In this document: positions 10,713-63,701 of the stretch, piece by piece
Layout of the letters: each line of letters starts with the position of its first letter
Position numbering within the stretch: the first letter of the stretch is position 1
Assembly: GCF_020531985.1 (NCBI RefSeq)
Contig: NZ_JAJAVQ010000006.1
Location: 124,001-188,000, forward strand
Length of the DNA: 64,000 bases
Reading direction: 5' to 3'
Source: Rheinheimera aquimaris
Lineage (GTDB): Bacteria; Pseudomonadota; Gammaproteobacteria; Enterobacterales; Alteromonadaceae
Position numbers and translations under genes: made by a program
Notes under the pieces: model-generated
The model's database searches: none
The model's input: the letters and a program-made list of their open reading frames with translations, nothing else
Told to the model about the DNA's origin: nothing

Positions 10713-13184
10713 ATGCCTCAAATTCGTTACTCTGTGTTGGCGTTCGCTGTCTGCACTCTGTCGCTGGCGGGCCCATTGCAGGCCAAAAATACTGAATCAC
10801 TGAATTACCCGACTGAAGCGGTTAGTGTACCGGTGGTATATAACGCTGATCCTACTGTTGAGCTAAGTTTAGAGCAAATTATGGCAGATCCGGATTGGCT
10901 TGGACGTCAGCCGGAAGACGCGCATTGGTCGTTGGACAGCCAGCAGGTGTATTTTGAACGTAAAAGAGAAGGTAGTGAACTGCGTGACTGGTATTCCCGG
11001 CCACTGGCTGCGGCTGGCAATGGCAGTGTAGTACCGTTGTCGCAGCTGCATCAGATTGGCGCAGCTCAGATAAGCTATAACGCCGATCGCAGTATGCAAG
11101 CTTATGTATTCGAAGGCGATGTGTTTGTTCGTCGCGTAACTGATGGTGAGCTGATACAGCTAACGCGCGATAATGCAGCGCAAAGTGCGCCTGAGTTTTT
11201 ACTTGATGGCCGACTGGTATACCGCGAAGGTTGGAGTTGGTACGCGCATGATTTGGCAACAGGCCAGCGGATAGAGCTGGTGAGCCTGAAAACAGAAGAT
11301 AAACCCAAGGCTCCGGCAACACCGTCAGGTTATCTGGCGCAGGAGCAACATAAGCTGATTGAGTTTGTCGCCTTGCAGCAACAACACGCCGAGCAGCGCT
11401 TTGATGCTAAAAAGCAATTGCAGCAACAAAATGACAGTATTGCCGCACCAGCCATCTATCTGGGCAAAGGCCAGCAGATTGTCGGCGCGAGTTTATCGCC
11501 TAAAGCCGATTATCTTGTGGTATCAGTACGTAAAGCCGGTAAAGCCAATGAGAAAGACATCATGCCGAATTATATTACCGGCAACGGTGATATAGCCGCG
11601 CAGAAAGTTCGTGCCCGCGTAAATGATGTAAATCCCGAGCCGCAGCGCGTTTTGCTGGTTAGCCTGCAGGATGGTAGCAGTACTGAGTTGAGCTACAGCA
11701 GCTTGCCTGGTTACAACGAAGACGTGTTGGCTGAGGTAAAAGCAGAAAATGCCAAGGCCAGAGGCGAGAAGTACAAAAGTGAAAAGGTGATCCGTGCTAT
11801 CGGTCTGATGAACGACTGGTACTGGAGCCAGAGCGCTATACGCTGGCACCGCAATGGCGAGCAGGTGGCGCTGATGCTAAAAGCATTGGATAATAAGGAC
11901 CGCTGGATAGCAACCGTTGACCTTAAACAGAAAAAGCTGATACCACAGCACCGGCTACATGACGATGCCTGGGTGAACTACGCGTTTAATGACTTTGGTT
12001 GGCTGAATAACAGCGAGAGCCTGTATTATCTGTCTGAAGAGTCTGGCTATTCACATTTATATGTTAAGCCTTTAAAAGGGAAGGCCAAAAAACTAACCGA
12101 GGGCAGTTTTGAAGTCGCTGGTCCGGTATTAACTCATGACGATGCCTATATTTACTTTCAGGCCAATGTTAAGCACCCGGGTAATTATGAGGTTTACCGT
12201 ACAGTGCTGGAGACGGGCAAAACCGAGCAGTTGACCAAACTGGGCGGTAACACCAGTTTTACGCTGTCGCCGGATGAATCAAAGCTGTTGCTGAATTTCT
12301 CTACCAATCTTAAGCCGAATGAATTATATGTTGCTGATGCTGTTGTCGGTGCAGAGGTAAAACCGCTAACAGACACCATCTCGGCAGAGTTTAAGCAGCT
12401 ACCTCTGGTTGCACCGCAAATTGTGGCGGTACCTTCAAGCCACGGCAAACAGCCGGTTTTTGCCAAAGTGTACTACCCGAAAGATTATCAGCAAGGTGAG
12501 AAGCGCCGCGCTGTGATCTTTAACCACGGTGCCGGTTATCTGCAAAACAGTGATTTAGGCTGGTCTGGTTACTTCCGCGAGTTTCTGTTCCATAACTTAC
12601 TGACCCAGCAGGGCTATGTAGTAATGGATATGGATTACCGTGCATCAAAAGGTTATGGCCGTGACTGGCGCACCGCAATTTACCGCCGGATGGGCACGCC
12701 AGAGATTGAAGATTTAGCAGATGGCGTGAACTGGCTGGTAGACAATGCGAATGTTGATCGTAACCGCATTGGTACTTATGGTGGTTCTTACGGTGGCTTT
12801 ATGACCTTTATGGCGCTGTTTACCCAGCCGGATCTGTTTCAGGCCGGTGCAGCCCTGCGTCCGGTCAGTGACTGGGCTTATTATAACCATGCTTACACGT
12901 CTAATATTCTGAACTCACCAGCGATTGACCCTATAGCGTATCAGCGCAGTTCGCCCATTTACTTTACGCAGGGTCTGAAAAAGCCACTGCTTATCAACGC
13001 TCCTATGGTTGATGACAATGTATTTTTCCAGGACGTTGTGCGTCTGGTTCAACGCCTGATTGAGCAGGAAAACAACAACTTTGAAACCGCTATTTATCCG
13101 GTTGAACCGCATGGCTTCCGTCAGCCAAGCAGCTGGCTGGATGAGTACCGCCGGATTTATAAATTGTTTGAACAAAACCTATAA
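10713..13184 (+). CDS. Exported S9-family prolyl oligopeptidase (DPP4-like)
   Basis: The 823-residue protein has a signal peptide (residues 1-24, ending PLQAKN). A long beta-propeller region with TolB/DPP4-like repeats follows (to about residue 560). The C-terminal alpha/beta-hydrolase domain has the nucleophile Ser692 in YGGSYGGFM, and a catalytic histidine lies near the end in EPHGFRQPS. S9 enzymes cut short peptides after proline or alanine. It is probably periplasmic and contributes to peptide use together with the second S9 peptidase at 38637-40658. A structured intergenic repeat and then a terminator follow the stop codon. Confidence 0.92.
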   Translation: MPQIRYSVLAFAVCTLSLAGPLQAKNTESLNYPTEAVSVPVVYNADPTVELSLEQIMADPDWLGRQPEDAHWSLDSQQVYFERKREGSELRDWYSRPLAAAGNGSVVPLSQLHQIGAAQISYNADRSMQAYVFEGDVFVRRVTDGELIQLTRDNAAQSAPEFLLDGRLVYREGWSWYAHDLATGQRIELVSLKTEDKPKAPATPSGYLAQEQHKLIEFVALQQQHAEQRFDAKKQLQQQNDSIAAPAIYLGKGQQIVGASLSPKADYLVVSVRKAGKANEKDIMPNYITGNGDIAAQKVRARVNDVNPEPQRVLLVSLQDGSSTELSYSSLPGYNEDVLAEVKAENAKARGEKYKSEKVIRAIGLMNDWYWSQSAIRWHRNGEQVALMLKALDNKDRWIATVDLKQKKLIPQHRLHDDAWVNYAFNDFGWLNNSESLYYLSEESGYSHLYVKPLKGKAKKLTEGSFEVAGPVLTHDDAYIYFQANVKHPGNYEVYRTVLETGKTEQLTKLGGNTSFTLSPDESKLLLNFSTNLKPNELYVADAVVGAEVKPLTDTISAEFKQLPLVAPQIVAVPSSHGKQPVFAKVYYPKDYQQGEKRRAVIFNHGAGYLQNSDLGWSGYFREFLFHNLLTQQGYVVMDMDYRASKGYGRDWRTAIYRRMGTPEIEDLADGVNWLVDNANVDRNRIGTYGGSYGGFMTFMALFTQPDLFQAGAALRPVSDWAYYNHAYTSNILNSPAIDPIAYQRSSPIYFTQGLKKPLLINAPMVDDNVFFQDVVRLVQRLIEQENNNFETAIYPVEPHGFRQPSSWLDEYRRIYKLFEQNL

Positions 13185-13207: not shown

Positions 13208-13302
13208 GGCAGGAAACCCGATTTTGTCGGCGCAGAGTGTCTGAGCCCTGCCGCAGGCAGAAGGGCGAGTTGCTGCGACGAGCTAAATCGGGTATTGCTG
13301 CC
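13208..13302 (+). repeat. Dispersed structured intergenic element, copy A
   Basis: This 95-nt imperfect palindrome shares two near-invariant arms with the copies at 21204 and 46149: GTCGGCGCAGAGTGTCTGAG (13226-13245) and CGAGTTGCTGCGACGAGC (13266-13283). The flanks form helices: GGCAG (13208-13212) with CTGCC (13298-13302), and ACCCGATTT (13216-13224) with AAATCGGGT (13285-13293). The apical 20 nt contain TGCC-GCA-GGCA. It lies 23 bases after the S9 peptidase stop, on the same strand, and before the terminator at 13327, so it would be part of the 3' UTR. Confidence 0.85.
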
Positions 13303-13376: not shown

Positions 13377-13778
13377 TTAGTCTTTTTTCAGTAAATCCCG
13401 AATTTCAGTCAGTAACTTCACATCTTCCGGTACAACAGCAACAGGCGCTGGCTTGGCTTCTTCTTTCTTTTTCATGGAGTTCATTGCCTTAACACCGACA
13501 AACACCGCAAAAGCAATAATAATAAAGTCGATAATGGTCTGGATAAAAGCACCGTACTTAATCACCACTTCGGCCTGAGTTTCTGTTGCCTGTTGAATAA
13601 CAACCGCCAGATCGCGAAAGTTAACGCCGCCTAACAACACGCCAATAGGCGGCATGATGACGTCATTTACAAAAGACGAAACAATTTTGCCAAAGGCCGC
13701 ACCGATAATGATACCGACGGCCATATCTACTACGTTGCCACGCATGGCAAAGGTTTTAAATTCCTGCAGCATACTCAT
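13377..13778 (-). CDS. mscL: Large-conductance mechanosensitive channel MscL
   Basis: The 133-residue protein starts [42 protein letters not shown] in register with E. coli MscL (136 residues). It has two transmembrane helices and the C-terminal bundle [13 protein letters not shown]-type helix (here [16 protein letters not shown]). MscL opens under membrane tension to release solutes during hypo-osmotic shock. It is monocistronic. A short ribosome-binding site (AGGAG on the minus strand) precedes the start. Confidence 0.97.
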
Positions 13779-20319: not shown

Positions 20320-21165
20320 ATGGCCTTTGTAAGCACCGACAATTATATCGTTTCAGCTGAACTGGCATTGGCAGTAAATGCGGCTGTAACGCTGGAAAAA
20401 CCTTTGCTGATAAAAGGCGAGCCGGGCACCGGTAAAACCAGGCTGGCAGAAGAGTTAGCGGCCAGTTTAGGCGCAGAATTAATTCAGTGGCATATCAAAT
20501 CTACGACTAAAGCTCAGCATGGCTTGTACGAGTATGACGCGGTTTCACGTTTGCGCGATAGCCAGCTGGGTAGCGACAAAGTGCACGATATTAATAACTA
20601 TATTCGCCCGGGTAAGTTGTGGCAGGCATTTAGCGCAGCAAAACGGCCGGTGCTGCTGATTGATGAAATAGATAAAGCCGATATCGAGTTTCCAAATGAC
20701 CTGCTGCATGAGCTGGACAGGATGGCGTTTTATGTGCACGAAACCGGGGAACAGGTTACAGCCAGAGAGCGGCCAATTGTAATTATCACGTCTAATAACG
20801 AAAAGGAGCTGCCAGATGCCTTTTTACGCCGCTGCTTTTTTCACTATATCCGCTTTCCAGACGCCGAAACCTTGCGTGCTATTGTCGCGGTGCATTTTCC
20901 GCATATTCAGCAGCAGCTGTTAACTGTGGCGCTGGAAGTGTTTTTCGAACTGCGTGAATTACCGGGCTTAAAGAAAAAGCCCTCTACATCTGAGTTGCTG
21001 GACTGGTTAAAGTTATTGCTGGCCGAAGATATACCGGCAGAGGTACTTACCGACAAACAGCAAAAGGGTGGTTTAATGCCGATGTTTGGTGCACTGCTGA
21101 AAAATGAGCAGGATGTGGCTTTAGTTGAGAAACTGGCTTTTTTAGCGAAAAGACAAGGGCGTTAA
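20320..21165 (+). CDS. MoxR-family AAA+ ATPase
   Basis: The 281-residue ATPase has Walker A GEPGTGKT (residues 33-40), Walker B VLLIDEIDKAD, sensor-1 IITSNNEKELPDAFLRRC and an arginine finger region. MoxR ATPases work as chaperones on a VWA-domain partner, and the next gene encodes a CoxE-like VWA protein. The pair resembles the aerobic-type MoxR/CoxE modules found apart from CO dehydrogenase genes; the client is unknown. Between the two genes is copy B of the structured intergenic repeat, an unusual insertion in what should be one operon. Confidence 0.92.
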   Translation: MAFVSTDNYIVSAELALAVNAAVTLEKPLLIKGEPGTGKTRLAEELAASLGAELIQWHIKSTTKAQHGLYEYDAVSRLRDSQLGSDKVHDINNYIRPGKLWQAFSAAKRPVLLIDEIDKADIEFPNDLLHELDRMAFYVHETGEQVTARERPIVIITSNNEKELPDAFLRRCFFHYIRFPDAETLRAIVAVHFPHIQQQLLTVALEVFFELRELPGLKKKPSTSELLDWLKLLLAEDIPAEVLTDKQQKGGLMPMFGALLKNEQDVALVEKLAFLAKRQGR

Positions 21166-21203: not shown

Positions 21204-21298
21204 GGCCCAGAACCTTGTTAAGGTCGGCGCAGAGTGTCTGAGTGAGGGCGATAGCACGAGCGAGTTGCTGCGACGAGCCTTGGCAAGTGTTGTGGGCC
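21204..21298 (+). repeat. Dispersed structured intergenic element, copy B
   Basis: This 95-nt imperfect palindrome lies between the MoxR and CoxE-like genes. The constant arms are GTCGGCGCAGAGTGTCTGAG (21223-21242) and CGAGTTGCTGCGACGAGC (21261-21278). The outer helix is GGCCCA (21204-21209) with TGGGCC (21293-21298), then AAC/GTT and CTTG..AAG with CTT..CAAG. The apical region is GGGC-GATA-GC-like. The flank sequences differ from copies A and C, but pairing is kept. The element ends 27 bases before the downstream start codon. Confidence 0.85.
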
Positions 21299-21325: not shown

Positions 21326-22498
21326 ATGCTAATTGATTTCTTTTTTACGCTGCGAAAATGCGGTTTAAAAACCAGCATTACTGAATTGCTGGACTTGCTT
21401 CACGCGTTGCAAAAGCAGGTTATCTTCGCCGATACCGAAGCCTTTTATCAGTTAGCACGGCTTTGTCTGGTAAAAGATGAAACCCAGTATGATAAATTTG
21501 ACCGGGCTTTTGCCGAGTACTTTGAAGGTGTTGCCGGGGTCGATATTGCTGCCAGCATTCCGCCTGAATGGCTGGTGCCGGAAGTGCTGCGTAAGCTCAG
21601 TGAGGAAGATAAAGCCAAGCTACAAGCGCTGGGCGGGCTGGATAAACTGCTTGAAACGCTGCGCGAGCGTTTAGCCGAGCAGCAAAAAAAACACAGCGGC
21701 GGCAATAAATGGATCGGGACTGGCGGCACGTCGCCTTTTGGTGCTTACGGTTATAACCCGGAAGGTGTGCGCATTGGTCAGCAGGGCAGTGGCGCTCGCC
21801 GTGCGGTAAAGGTGTGGGATAAACGCGAGTTCAAAGATTTAGATACCGAAAGCGAGCTTAACAACCGCAGTATTAAACTGGCCCTGAAGCAGTTGCGTAA
21901 GTTTGCCCGCAGCGGCGCCGAGAACGAGCTGGATTTACACGGCACTATTCAAGCGACGTCAGAACAGGCCGGCTGGTTGGATTTACGCTTTATGCGCGAG
22001 CGGCACAATGCCGTGAAGCTACTGGTGTTTTTCGATGTGGGTGGCTCGATGGATGACCACATTGAACAGTGTCAGAAGCTGTTTGCCGCAGTTAAAACCG
22101 AGTTTAAGCATCTGGAGTTTTTTTACTTCCACAACTGCGTGTATGAAGGTGTCTGGCGTGATAATAAACGCCGTTATACTGAGCAGATTAAAGTAGAAGA
22201 CATCATTCACACCTATAGCAGCGATTACAAACTGATTTTCGTTGGTGACGCGACGATGGGGCCTTACGAGATAGAATACCCCGGCGGCAGCGTAGAGCAT
22301 TTTAATGAGTTGCCGGGTAAAGTGTGGTTACAGCGGTTATTGGCGCAATACCCAAAAGCGGTCTGGCTAAACCCCCAGCCACTGCAGTGGTGGGGGCATT
22401 ACTATTCTATTGGTATCATTGAAAAAATCATGCAAGGCCGCATGTTTGCGTTGACATTGGACGGTCTTGGCAGCGCGATCAAAATGTTGTTGCCATAA
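21326..22498 (+). CDS. VWA-domain protein, CoxE-like
   Basis: The 390-residue protein has a helical N-terminal part and a C-terminal von Willebrand factor A-type domain. The MIDAS-like motif reads FFDVGGSMDDH (about residues 233-243), the DVGGSM form typical of CoxE-like proteins. A glycine-rich middle segment (GTGGTSPFGAYGYNPEG) is also characteristic. It presumably works with the upstream MoxR ATPase. The start at ATG 21326 is taken because the conserved N-terminus begins there. ATG 21317 is an alternative, and neither has a recognisable ribosome-binding site, which is odd given the structured repeat just upstream. Confidence 0.9.
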   Translation: MLIDFFFTLRKCGLKTSITELLDLLHALQKQVIFADTEAFYQLARLCLVKDETQYDKFDRAFAEYFEGVAGVDIAASIPPEWLVPEVLRKLSEEDKAKLQALGGLDKLLETLRERLAEQQKKHSGGNKWIGTGGTSPFGAYGYNPEGVRIGQQGSGARRAVKVWDKREFKDLDTESELNNRSIKLALKQLRKFARSGAENELDLHGTIQATSEQAGWLDLRFMRERHNAVKLLVFFDVGGSMDDHIEQCQKLFAAVKTEFKHLEFFYFHNCVYEGVWRDNKRRYTEQIKVEDIIHTYSSDYKLIFVGDATMGPYEIEYPGGSVEHFNELPGKVWLQRLLAQYPKAVWLNPQPLQWWGHYYSIGIIEKIMQGRMFALTLDGLGSAIKMLLP

Positions 22499-44992: not shown

Positions 44993-46132
<1,140 letters not shown>

Positions 46133-46148: not shown

Positions 46149-46253
46149 AGGACGGATTAGAACCCCGTTCTGGTCGGCACAGAGTGTCTGAGCGAGCGCG
46201 CAAGCGCGAACGAGTTGCTGTGACGAGCCAGGGCGGGCGTTGTAATCTGTCCT
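46149..46253 (+). repeat. Dispersed structured intergenic element, copy C
   Basis: This 105-nt copy lies in the 143 bases between frmA and fghA. The arms are GTCGGCACAGAGTGTCTGAG (46173-46192) and CGAGTTGCTGTGACGAGC (46211-46228). Relative to the other copies both arms changed (CGCAG to CACAG, and CTGCG to CTGTG), so the helix still pairs. Outer helix AGGACGGATTA (46149-46159) pairs with TAATCTGTCCT (46243-46253). The apical hairpin is GCGC-GCAA-GCGC-like with a GNRA tetraloop. Confidence 0.85.
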
Positions 46254-46275: not shown

Positions 46276-47124
46276 ATGACTACATCAGCCATAACCAAAG
46301 TAAGTGAACAGTTATGCTTTGGCGGTAAGCAAATCCGCTATAAACATCAATCGGCAGTATTACACTGCGACATGCAGTTTTCTGTTTTTCTGCCACCGCA
46401 AGCCGAAACCGCGAGGGTACCCGCGCTATACTGGCTGTCGGGGTTAACCTGTACTGATGAAAATTTTTCCAGTAAGGCCGGCGCACAGCAATTTGCCGCC
46501 AAACTGGGTATAGCGCTGATTATACCGGATACCAGCCCGCGTGGTGACGATGTGCCGGATGATGAAAATGCAGCCTACGATTTTGGCCTCGGTGCTGGTT
46601 TTTATGTCAATGCGACACAGGCTCCTTTTAATAAGCACTACAAGATGTACGACTATATCGTTAGCGAATTGCCTGAACTGGTAGAAGCAGCATTGCCGTT
46701 AACAGACAAACGCGCGATCAGTGGTCATTCGATGGGGGGCCATGGCGCTTTGGTTATCGGCCTTCGCAACCCAGAGCGTTACTGCAGCATTTCCGCTTTC
46801 TCGCCGATTTGCAATCCGGCAAATAGCCCTTGGGGTATTAAGGCTTTTAATGGTTATTTGGGTGAAGATAGAAGCCAATGGCAGCAATATGATGCATCTT
46901 TGTTGTTGCGGGATGCAAAGAAGGTAGCGCCGATTTTGGTGGATCAAGGCAGCGCAGATAATTTCTACCCAGAGCAACTGCGTACAGCAAGCCTGGTGGA
47001 AGCGGCATCTTTAAACGATGTTAATGCCGAGATCCGGCTGCAGCCAGGTTATGATCATAGCTACTACTTTATCGCCAGTTTTATTGGTGAACACCTGCAT
47101 TTTCATGCGCAGTACTTGAAGTAA
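46276..47124 (+). CDS. fghA: S-formylglutathione hydrolase
   Basis: The 282-residue esterase has serine nucleophile motif SGHSMGGHGALV, the fold signature CTDENFSSKAGAQQFAA, and the late block VDQGSADNFYPEQL. It hydrolyses S-formylglutathione to formate and glutathione, completing formaldehyde detoxification begun by frmA upstream. GAAGGACAT lies just before the ATG. The HIT gene follows 48 bases after the stop, across a strong inverted repeat. Confidence 0.95.
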   Translation: MTTSAITKVSEQLCFGGKQIRYKHQSAVLHCDMQFSVFLPPQAETARVPALYWLSGLTCTDENFSSKAGAQQFAAKLGIALIIPDTSPRGDDVPDDENAAYDFGLGAGFYVNATQAPFNKHYKMYDYIVSELPELVEAALPLTDKRAISGHSMGGHGALVIGLRNPERYCSISAFSPICNPANSPWGIKAFNGYLGEDRSQWQQYDASLLLRDAKKVAPILVDQGSADNFYPEQLRTASLVEAASLNDVNAEIRLQPGYDHSYYFIASFIGEHLHFHAQYLK

Positions 47125-63470: not shown

Positions 63471-63600
63471 AGTCTTGCTCCAAAATGAGTTAGTTCACAA
63501 TCATTAATTAAGCAGTTTCAGTCATCTGAAGTGCTTACTACGAAAGGACATGCAGCATGTCGAGTAACTCTGACAGAGCAGAATACACATCGCATTTGCG

Positions 63601-63695
63601 ACGGCAGCCCAGCTATCGTAGATACTGCTTAACGGCAGTAACCTTAGACCTGAAGCTTTGCGTGTACACCCTTTCGGATGACTTGCCTTTCGAGC
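63601..63695 (-). ncRNA. c-di-GMP-I (GEMM-I) riboswitch
   Basis: On the minus strand the leader carries the GEMM-I core. GGCAAG..CAUCC-GAAA-GGGUG is the GNRA-capped P1b-type hairpin. Then ACGCAAAGC (63662-63654) and UUCAGGUCUAA follow, as in the Vc2 riboswitch (GACGCAAAGCCUCCGGCCUAA). UACUGC/GCAGUA forms the P2-side hairpin, and AUAGCUGGGCUGCC gives the tetraloop receptor strand (Vc2 has GUAGCGGGGUUACC). The aptamer ends about 130 bases before the DUF3718 start. Whether it turns the gene on or off is not clear from sequence. Confidence 0.9.
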
Positions 63696-63701
63696 GTGCG
63701 C

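Follow-up and report, generated by a model that had tools for sequence, protein, structure and literature searches.

The three intergenic copies in the window, the 64,000-nt stretch of Rheinheimera aquimaris DNA analysed here, belong to a dispersed family of conserved hairpins of about 95-110 nt that are structured as a single strand, RNA or DNA. This core claim of the original prediction is supported by the copies, by their covariation, and by the absence of a convincing Rfam match and of a fit to the GTAG/CGTC REP sequences. The prediction had spoken of a three-copy element; the 4.23-Mb genome really contains 22 copies, of which 21 are full-length and one carries an apical insert, as found with a covariance model (R1) built from 69 copies. 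The family seems to be palindromic and REP/ERIC-like in kind and a member of neither. We estimate a probability of about one half that it is an old non-autonomous element, REP-like in its logic and recognised as single-stranded DNA, most copies of which no longer move and may serve the host.

From the outside inwards, the hairpin consists of a variable outer helix, a short helix P2, a conserved internal loop and a variable apical hairpin. The internal loop is nearly fixed, its 5' half reading AGTGTYTGAG and its 3' half CGAGTTG. The outer helix carries, as judged by eye, a frequent purine·G mismatch (148 of 178 copies have no pair at this place) and a stretch rich in wobble pairs. With a scoring neutral between the two, the stems contain 220 G·U against 47 A·C; 147 of the 220 G·U are located at three neighbouring positions, and elsewhere the numbers are 73 and 36.

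The three window copies, with the shared arms and helices that the prediction had named, were all found at the positions given in Table 1. Each shared arm has three matches in the window at up to three mismatches, against 0.00 and 0.07 expected from shuffles; therefore the three copies are not chance. The change on both sides of P2 in copy C, from CGCAG/CTGCG to CACAG/CTGTG, is genuine. The outer helix GGATTA/TAATCT described for the same copy is present, with one of its pairs being G·U, and extends further outward as AGGAC/GTCCT. Compared with dinucleotide shuffles, the plus strands of copies A, B and C gave z values of -4.0, -5.2 and -5.7 for the RNA fold and -6.4, -4.3 and -5.3 for the DNA fold. 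The minus strands were likewise better than their own shuffles (RNA z of -6.0, -4.1 and -4.6), because the copies are near-palindromes. The RNA energies of the plus strands were stronger (-47.5, -48.7 and -58.5 kcal/mol, against -43.6, -35.7 and -43.9 kcal/mol for the minus strands), and the same strand was preferred with RNA and DNA parameters. The neighbours of copy C are presumably frmA and frmB.

Table 1. Copies of the element in the window, their parts and neighbouring genes, and one further feature.
Feature	Positions	Strand	Description	Basis
Copy A	13208-13302	+	Convergent spacer between S9/DPP-IV-type peptidase gene and mscL	Genes by Pfam
Left neighbour of A	10713-13184	+	S9/DPP-IV-type peptidase gene	Pfam
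Right neighbour of A	13377-13778	-	mscL	Pfam
Core of A	13230-13278	+	P2 13230-13235/13273-13278	
Loop halves of A	13236-13245; 13266-13272		5' half AGTGTCTGAG; 3' half CGAGTTG	
Apical hairpin of A	13246-13265		CCCTGCC..AGGG type	
Copy B	21204-21298	+	Between AAA-ATPase gene and CoxE-like VWA gene	Pfam
Left neighbour of B	20320-21165	+	AAA-ATPase gene	Pfam
Right neighbour of B	21326-22498	+	CoxE-like VWA gene	Pfam
Core of B	21227-21273	+	P2 21227-21232/21268-21273	
Loop halves of B	21233-21242; 21261-21267			
Apical hairpin of B	21243-21260			
Copy C	46149-46253	+	Between zinc-type alcohol dehydrogenase gene and esterase gene	Pfam
Left neighbour of C	45014-46132	+	Zinc-type alcohol dehydrogenase gene	Pfam
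Right neighbour of C	46276-47124	+	Esterase gene	Pfam
Core of C	46177-46223	+	P2 46177-46182/46218-46223	
Loop halves of C	46183-46192; 46211-46217			
Apical hairpin of C	46193-46210			
c-di-GMP-I riboswitch	63600-63697	-	55.7 bits	Rfam search

In an alignment of 12 copies from this genome (12 of its 13 pattern matches; the copy with the long insert was left out), 94% of the cells are paired and 22 of the 32 pairs are changed on both sides. This covariation was approached by none of 500 shuffles and by no slid version of the alignment; it should be mentioned that these shuffle counts, and those below, are no probabilities and overstate independence, because the copies are related by descent and often orthologous. 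The covariation predicted to hold in a larger alignment was seen in 69 copies from several species, picked for diversity from 135 distinct ones: four of the five measures agree with the 12-copy result and were not attained by 500 shuffles or slid controls, whereas its 15 pairs with a change on each side were also reached by 11 of the 500 shuffles. This alignment was fed by stretches carrying the exact loop pattern, so that conservation of the loop in it is partly by construction. For 44 cores, picked from 95 and required to have at least five of the six P2 pairs, nine pairs changed on both sides were met in 24 of 500 shuffles and the other measures in none.

P2 was nearly invariant in the first sample, yet it is wholly replaced with compensation in three of the 21 full-length copies of this genome (CCATAG/CTATGG, CCGAAG/CTTCGG and CCGGGG/CCCCGG), and in another genus it reads CTGGGG/CCCCAG or AAAACG/CGTTTT. 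Since the 44 cores had been preselected for P2 pairing, the count was repeated with no pairing requirement. At least five of the six pairs are formed in 164 of 166 distinct cores, and in 18 of the 19 whose P2 is other than CRCAG; the latter have a mean of 5.7 pairs, compared with 4.0 after shuffling of the partners. The opening base of the 5' loop half and the final base of the 3' half are A·G in 159 cores and G·A in seven, one of which, with its P2 broken, might be a chance match; the crossed combinations, which the pattern permitted, occur in none. At the other end of the loop, where the 5' half finishes and the 3' half begins, the two bases are G-C in 156 of 174 cores selected for P2 pairing, A-U in six, C-G in one, G-U in five and unpaired in six. 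The G and A facing G and A beside this closing pair seem to resemble tandem sheared G·A pairs.

The further copies were checked by covariance-model searches. R1 found matches in 28 of the 31 genus genomes searched, from 1 to 33 per matched genome and some of them weak, and none in the other three (G059, G060 and G086). With a core-only model (R2), matches were obtained in 22 of 246 family genomes and in four of 52 genera, those in one genus (g42) being weak. The exact loop pattern yielded at least 118 stretches over the named genomes, and the titles among the matches listed were Rheinheimera, Arsukibacterium, Alishewanella and unclassified gammaproteobacterial MAGs, and nothing else. Of the 369 class genomes searched, the other 368 lacked the exact core pattern; few of these are members of the same family. 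A fuller exact pattern had no match in viral contigs, and copy C had none by blastn in plasmid and phage records. The most similar pair among the 21 full-length copies shows 83% identity and thus no sign of recent duplication; three close inverted pairs are present among the 22 copies. In genus g45 (loci L370-L377 and L379), a like loop is found in a different, longer hairpin, a form of about 150 nt frequently flanked by GAGCC...GGGCTTTC.

In 194 of 199 copies, the fold of the element strand surpasses that of its complement, with a mean advantage of 8.9 to 10.7 kcal/mol across four gene contexts. This also applies to 57 of the 58 copies that are antisense to both neighbours. No bias of replication strand was seen, 13 of the 22 own copies lying on the positive GC-skew side (mean 0.009, standard error 0.010). 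This means that the better fold is tied to one strand, which is chosen neither by the direction of the neighbouring genes nor, as judged by GC skew, by that of replication. Besides the 58 antisense copies, the 199 comprise 64 in convergent spacers, 59 between same-strand genes and 18 in divergent spacers; therefore gene 3' ends are preferred. These contexts were taken from a simple ORF caller; an overlap of more than 10 nt with a called ORF, probably mis-called, was seen for 16 of 129 copies. The predicted location after a plus-strand gene is correct for the three window copies and fails as a rule for the family.

Each of the three window slots was traced through 30 of the 31 genus genomes. 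The element is present in 25 of the 30 at the dehydrogenase-esterase slot (15 forward, 10 inverted), in 22 at the ATPase-VWA slot (13 forward, nine inverted, one of them partial at locus 236) and in 15 at the peptidase-mscL slot (six forward, nine inverted). The common orientation proposed from the window is accordingly not general, as other species hold the element inverted at the same slots. Within a slot and orientation, the mean identity of the element is 0.83-0.94, copies with long inserts having been left out and the values being lowered where different elements are mixed within a slot (loci 199, 206 and 219 in the first slot, 335 in the third). The twelve sets of 45-nt flanks show an identity of 0.52-0.70 in eleven cases and 0.85 in one, against 0.48 for shuffled flanks. 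The outer stems are specific to the locus and are kept with paired changes, such as GGTCGG/CGACC versus GGCCGG/CGGCC with one G·U intermediate (locus 341).

By eye, the start of an inverted copy is joined to the end of a forward copy at locus 349, a forward copy is followed by the retained end of an inverted one at locus 233, and pair remnants and short-repeat deletions are seen in several species. Loss of one or both members of ancestral inverted pairs therefore accounts, at least in part, for the differences in orientation. Compact spacers without the element exist in some species (loci 222-224 and 248-250), and some empty sites at the three slots look like deletions. Neither a target duplication nor a sharp insertion boundary was found by eye at these slots, where the empty and filled forms are much diverged.

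The apical hairpin types recur at different loci and vary at one locus. In addition, ten copies in other genomes carry a double-hairpin module of about 67 nt (ACAAATTCGTCNGGAACGAATTTG ... GGGCAGGA..GCCC) inside the 3' loop half (loci L339, L348, L229, L214, L204, L200, L207, L196, L198 and L209). In several species and slots the module sits after CGA and stops before AGTTG. The junction is exact in two comparisons, locus 331 with 339, which are otherwise identical save one end base, and locus 347 with 348, which are nearly so; in several other module-bearing copies the apical stem was changed too. The insert copy of the own genome (L153) is a variant of this module with a different right end. 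A second, larger dispersed family was observed at L023, L041 (weaker), L045, L109 and L112; it has the arms GCGCAGCCACA...TGTGGCGAGCA or near variants and a different interior with similar GGA hairpins. Repeats rich in GGA-loop hairpins (ATGGAT, ACGGAT, AAGGA) are also found in L026 near 1706 (+) and in L027 near 444 (-), and we presume that they are perhaps CsrA-type sites.

The strand specificity, independent of context, and the position of the loop between free but paired helices argue that the folded single strand is probably recognised by some protein or process. The ancestor was probably a non-autonomous mobile DNA, the folded strand of which would have been recognised through the internal loop by a structure-specific enzyme acting in trans. 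The element would now be mostly immobile, and might be kept because its folded form is still useful or still recognised. No enzyme could be linked to it in the own genome, which has neither a Y1_Tnp nor an RVT_1 match. A host function would account for the in-place conservation of loop and stems no less well than a transposon remnant. It is tenable, if less likely, that the element is a host RNA element, co-transcribed with its neighbours. Its loop would be bound by a protein or an RNase, and the processing or stability of mRNAs would be controlled in this way at the ends of genes and inside operons, a role that has been proposed for ERIC and REP in mRNA. Its location at gene ends, its strong conservation in place, its presence within apparent operons (copies B and C of the window and two prpF-aconitase-citrate synthase spacers) and the overall excess of G·U over A·C are in line with such a role, and read-through from a neighbouring gene would also give a strong mRNA hairpin. 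However, the strand bias is equally strong in the copies antisense to both neighbours, and most of the G·U excess is confined to three adjacent positions. The occurrence of both orientations at orthologous slots that are conserved speaks against explaining the conservation by a simple sense-strand mRNA function alone. On this strand and orientation evidence, an element recognised as single-stranded DNA is favoured over a host mRNA element.

Pairing might also be kept by hairpin-templated correction, that is, template switching between the arms, in place of structural selection, with inversion as a product of the same process. The inverted forms at one slot, the remnants and short-repeat deletions and the exchange of apical hairpins between loci would suit this unlikely mechanism, which leaves the near-unchanged loop halves, the A·G to G·A exchange and the excess of G·U over A·C unexplained. 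An RNA-like internal loop with an exchanged non-canonical pair, and a strand bias independent of context, would be expected of independently transcribed small RNAs as well. A family of such RNAs appears more improbable still, as the flanks diverge at every slot examined, T-tracts follow just 5 of 199 copies, and the 100 nt upstream show no clear enrichment of TATAAT-like boxes that would indicate an own sigma-70-like promoter (23/31.6, 32/39.2, 44/40.6 and 10/16.5 observed/shuffled in the four contexts). With a T-tract directly after the hairpin in so few copies, an intrinsic terminator was rejected too.

REP/RAYT is a frequent explanation of dispersed palindromes. In the present case, no Y1_Tnp exists in a genome that carries 22 copies, conservation lies in an internal loop and not in an end tag, and the copies, although conserved in place, occur in either orientation. 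With this family, one can therefore test cleanly whether bacterial repeats persist because of an RNA function, because of a single-stranded DNA function or through correction, and the conserved loop is a defined bait for its reader protein. As a speculation that we consider rather unlikely, AGTGTYTGAG/CGAGTTG could be a novel motif for three-dimensional recognition that structured elements carry in several genera of the family and that a protein reads on the folded single strand. It would at the same time be the exact entry site of the 67-nt module, which would make a two-tier hairpin-targeting system.

It is known that attC sites act as a folded strand whose stems are free in sequence but paired, and that they end in the boxes RYYYAAC/GTTRRRY. 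The element shares the folded-strand logic and the free, paired stems, and differs in having no matching end boxes. An integron integrase is above cut-off in 28 of the 31 genus genomes, and in the own genome it has three copies no more than about 4.3 kb away. Nevertheless, an attC-like site of a chromosomal integron is a highly improbable identity for the element: the native repeats beside the integrase (GCCTAAC...GTTAGGC) are by eye unlike its ends, and the nearby copies occupy spacers of a prp-type cluster on the opposite side of the integrase gene. The chromosomal integron with its attC-like repeats was observed at L259, 5650-8569 (G000:C1). It adjoins the prpF-aconitase-citrate synthase gene cluster, the two spacers of which hold these three copies.

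In the comparison with known families, Rfam gave no match at gathering score at the window copies, and the c-di-GMP-I riboswitch of Table 1 was its sole such match in the window. Searched to an E value of 10, 11 own-genome loci and 10 long-form or relative loci showed a few overlaps, all far below the gathering scores (for example, 27.3 bits to a microRNA family with a gathering score of 170). There is thus no convincing Rfam match, and the GTAG/CGTC REP sequences do not fit either. Of 21 own copies, two have a GTAG/CGTC tag in the 14 nt next to the 5' end and one in those next to the 3' end; reverse-strand tags at the 3' end occur in none of the 21. A REP/RAYT pair is disfavoured by the own genome, with no Y1_Tnp, and by the three copy-less genus genomes, which do contain Y1_Tnp. 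Within 1.5 kb of 10 of the 58 listed Y1_Tnp matches, the 5' core half was missing in all 10; a lone 10-mer resembling the 3' core half was near five of them. A reverse-transcriptase origin was rejected as well: RVT_1 is found in 15 of the 31 genus genomes, and neither in the own genome nor in G061, G062, G067, G075, G078 and G087, each with 20-30 copies. The ends of the 21 own copies, the exact limits of which are uncertain, have by eye no common TA as in the TA-ended inverted repeats of ERIC/MITE elements. Literature searches for the family and its hosts showed no description of it among the open-licence papers listed, and the words Rheinheimera and Alishewanella are absent from the main texts of RepRanger and the GTAG/CGTC survey.

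The element presumably differs in sequence from ERIC and YPAL/RU-2. According to one report, these are intergenic repeats of 127 and 168 bp that form long stem-loops; ERIC may be co-transcribed with its neighbours, and YPAL targets lie at or beside dyad symmetry (PMC2229807). The element is likewise an intergenic repeat forming a long stem-loop, and is distinguished by the lack of common TA ends and by a different clade. REP sequences are described as palindromes of 20-50 nt with a strand-specific fold and conserved mismatches (PMC8266576), and a GTAG/CGTC REP does not fit an element of about 95-110 nt by length. REP/BIME systems with RAYT share with it dispersal, extragenic location, palindromy, a strand-specific fold with conserved mismatches and inverted pairs. 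Unlike them, the element is about 100 nt long, bears no GTAG/CGTC tag, resides in a host without Y1_Tnp and has its conserved part in an internal loop and not at an end. REPINs also form long hairpins with compensatory changes (PMC3116915). The conserved inverted ends of REPINs were not found here: in REPINs the ends are conserved and the middle is variable, whereas this element is conserved in its interior and varies in its outer helix.
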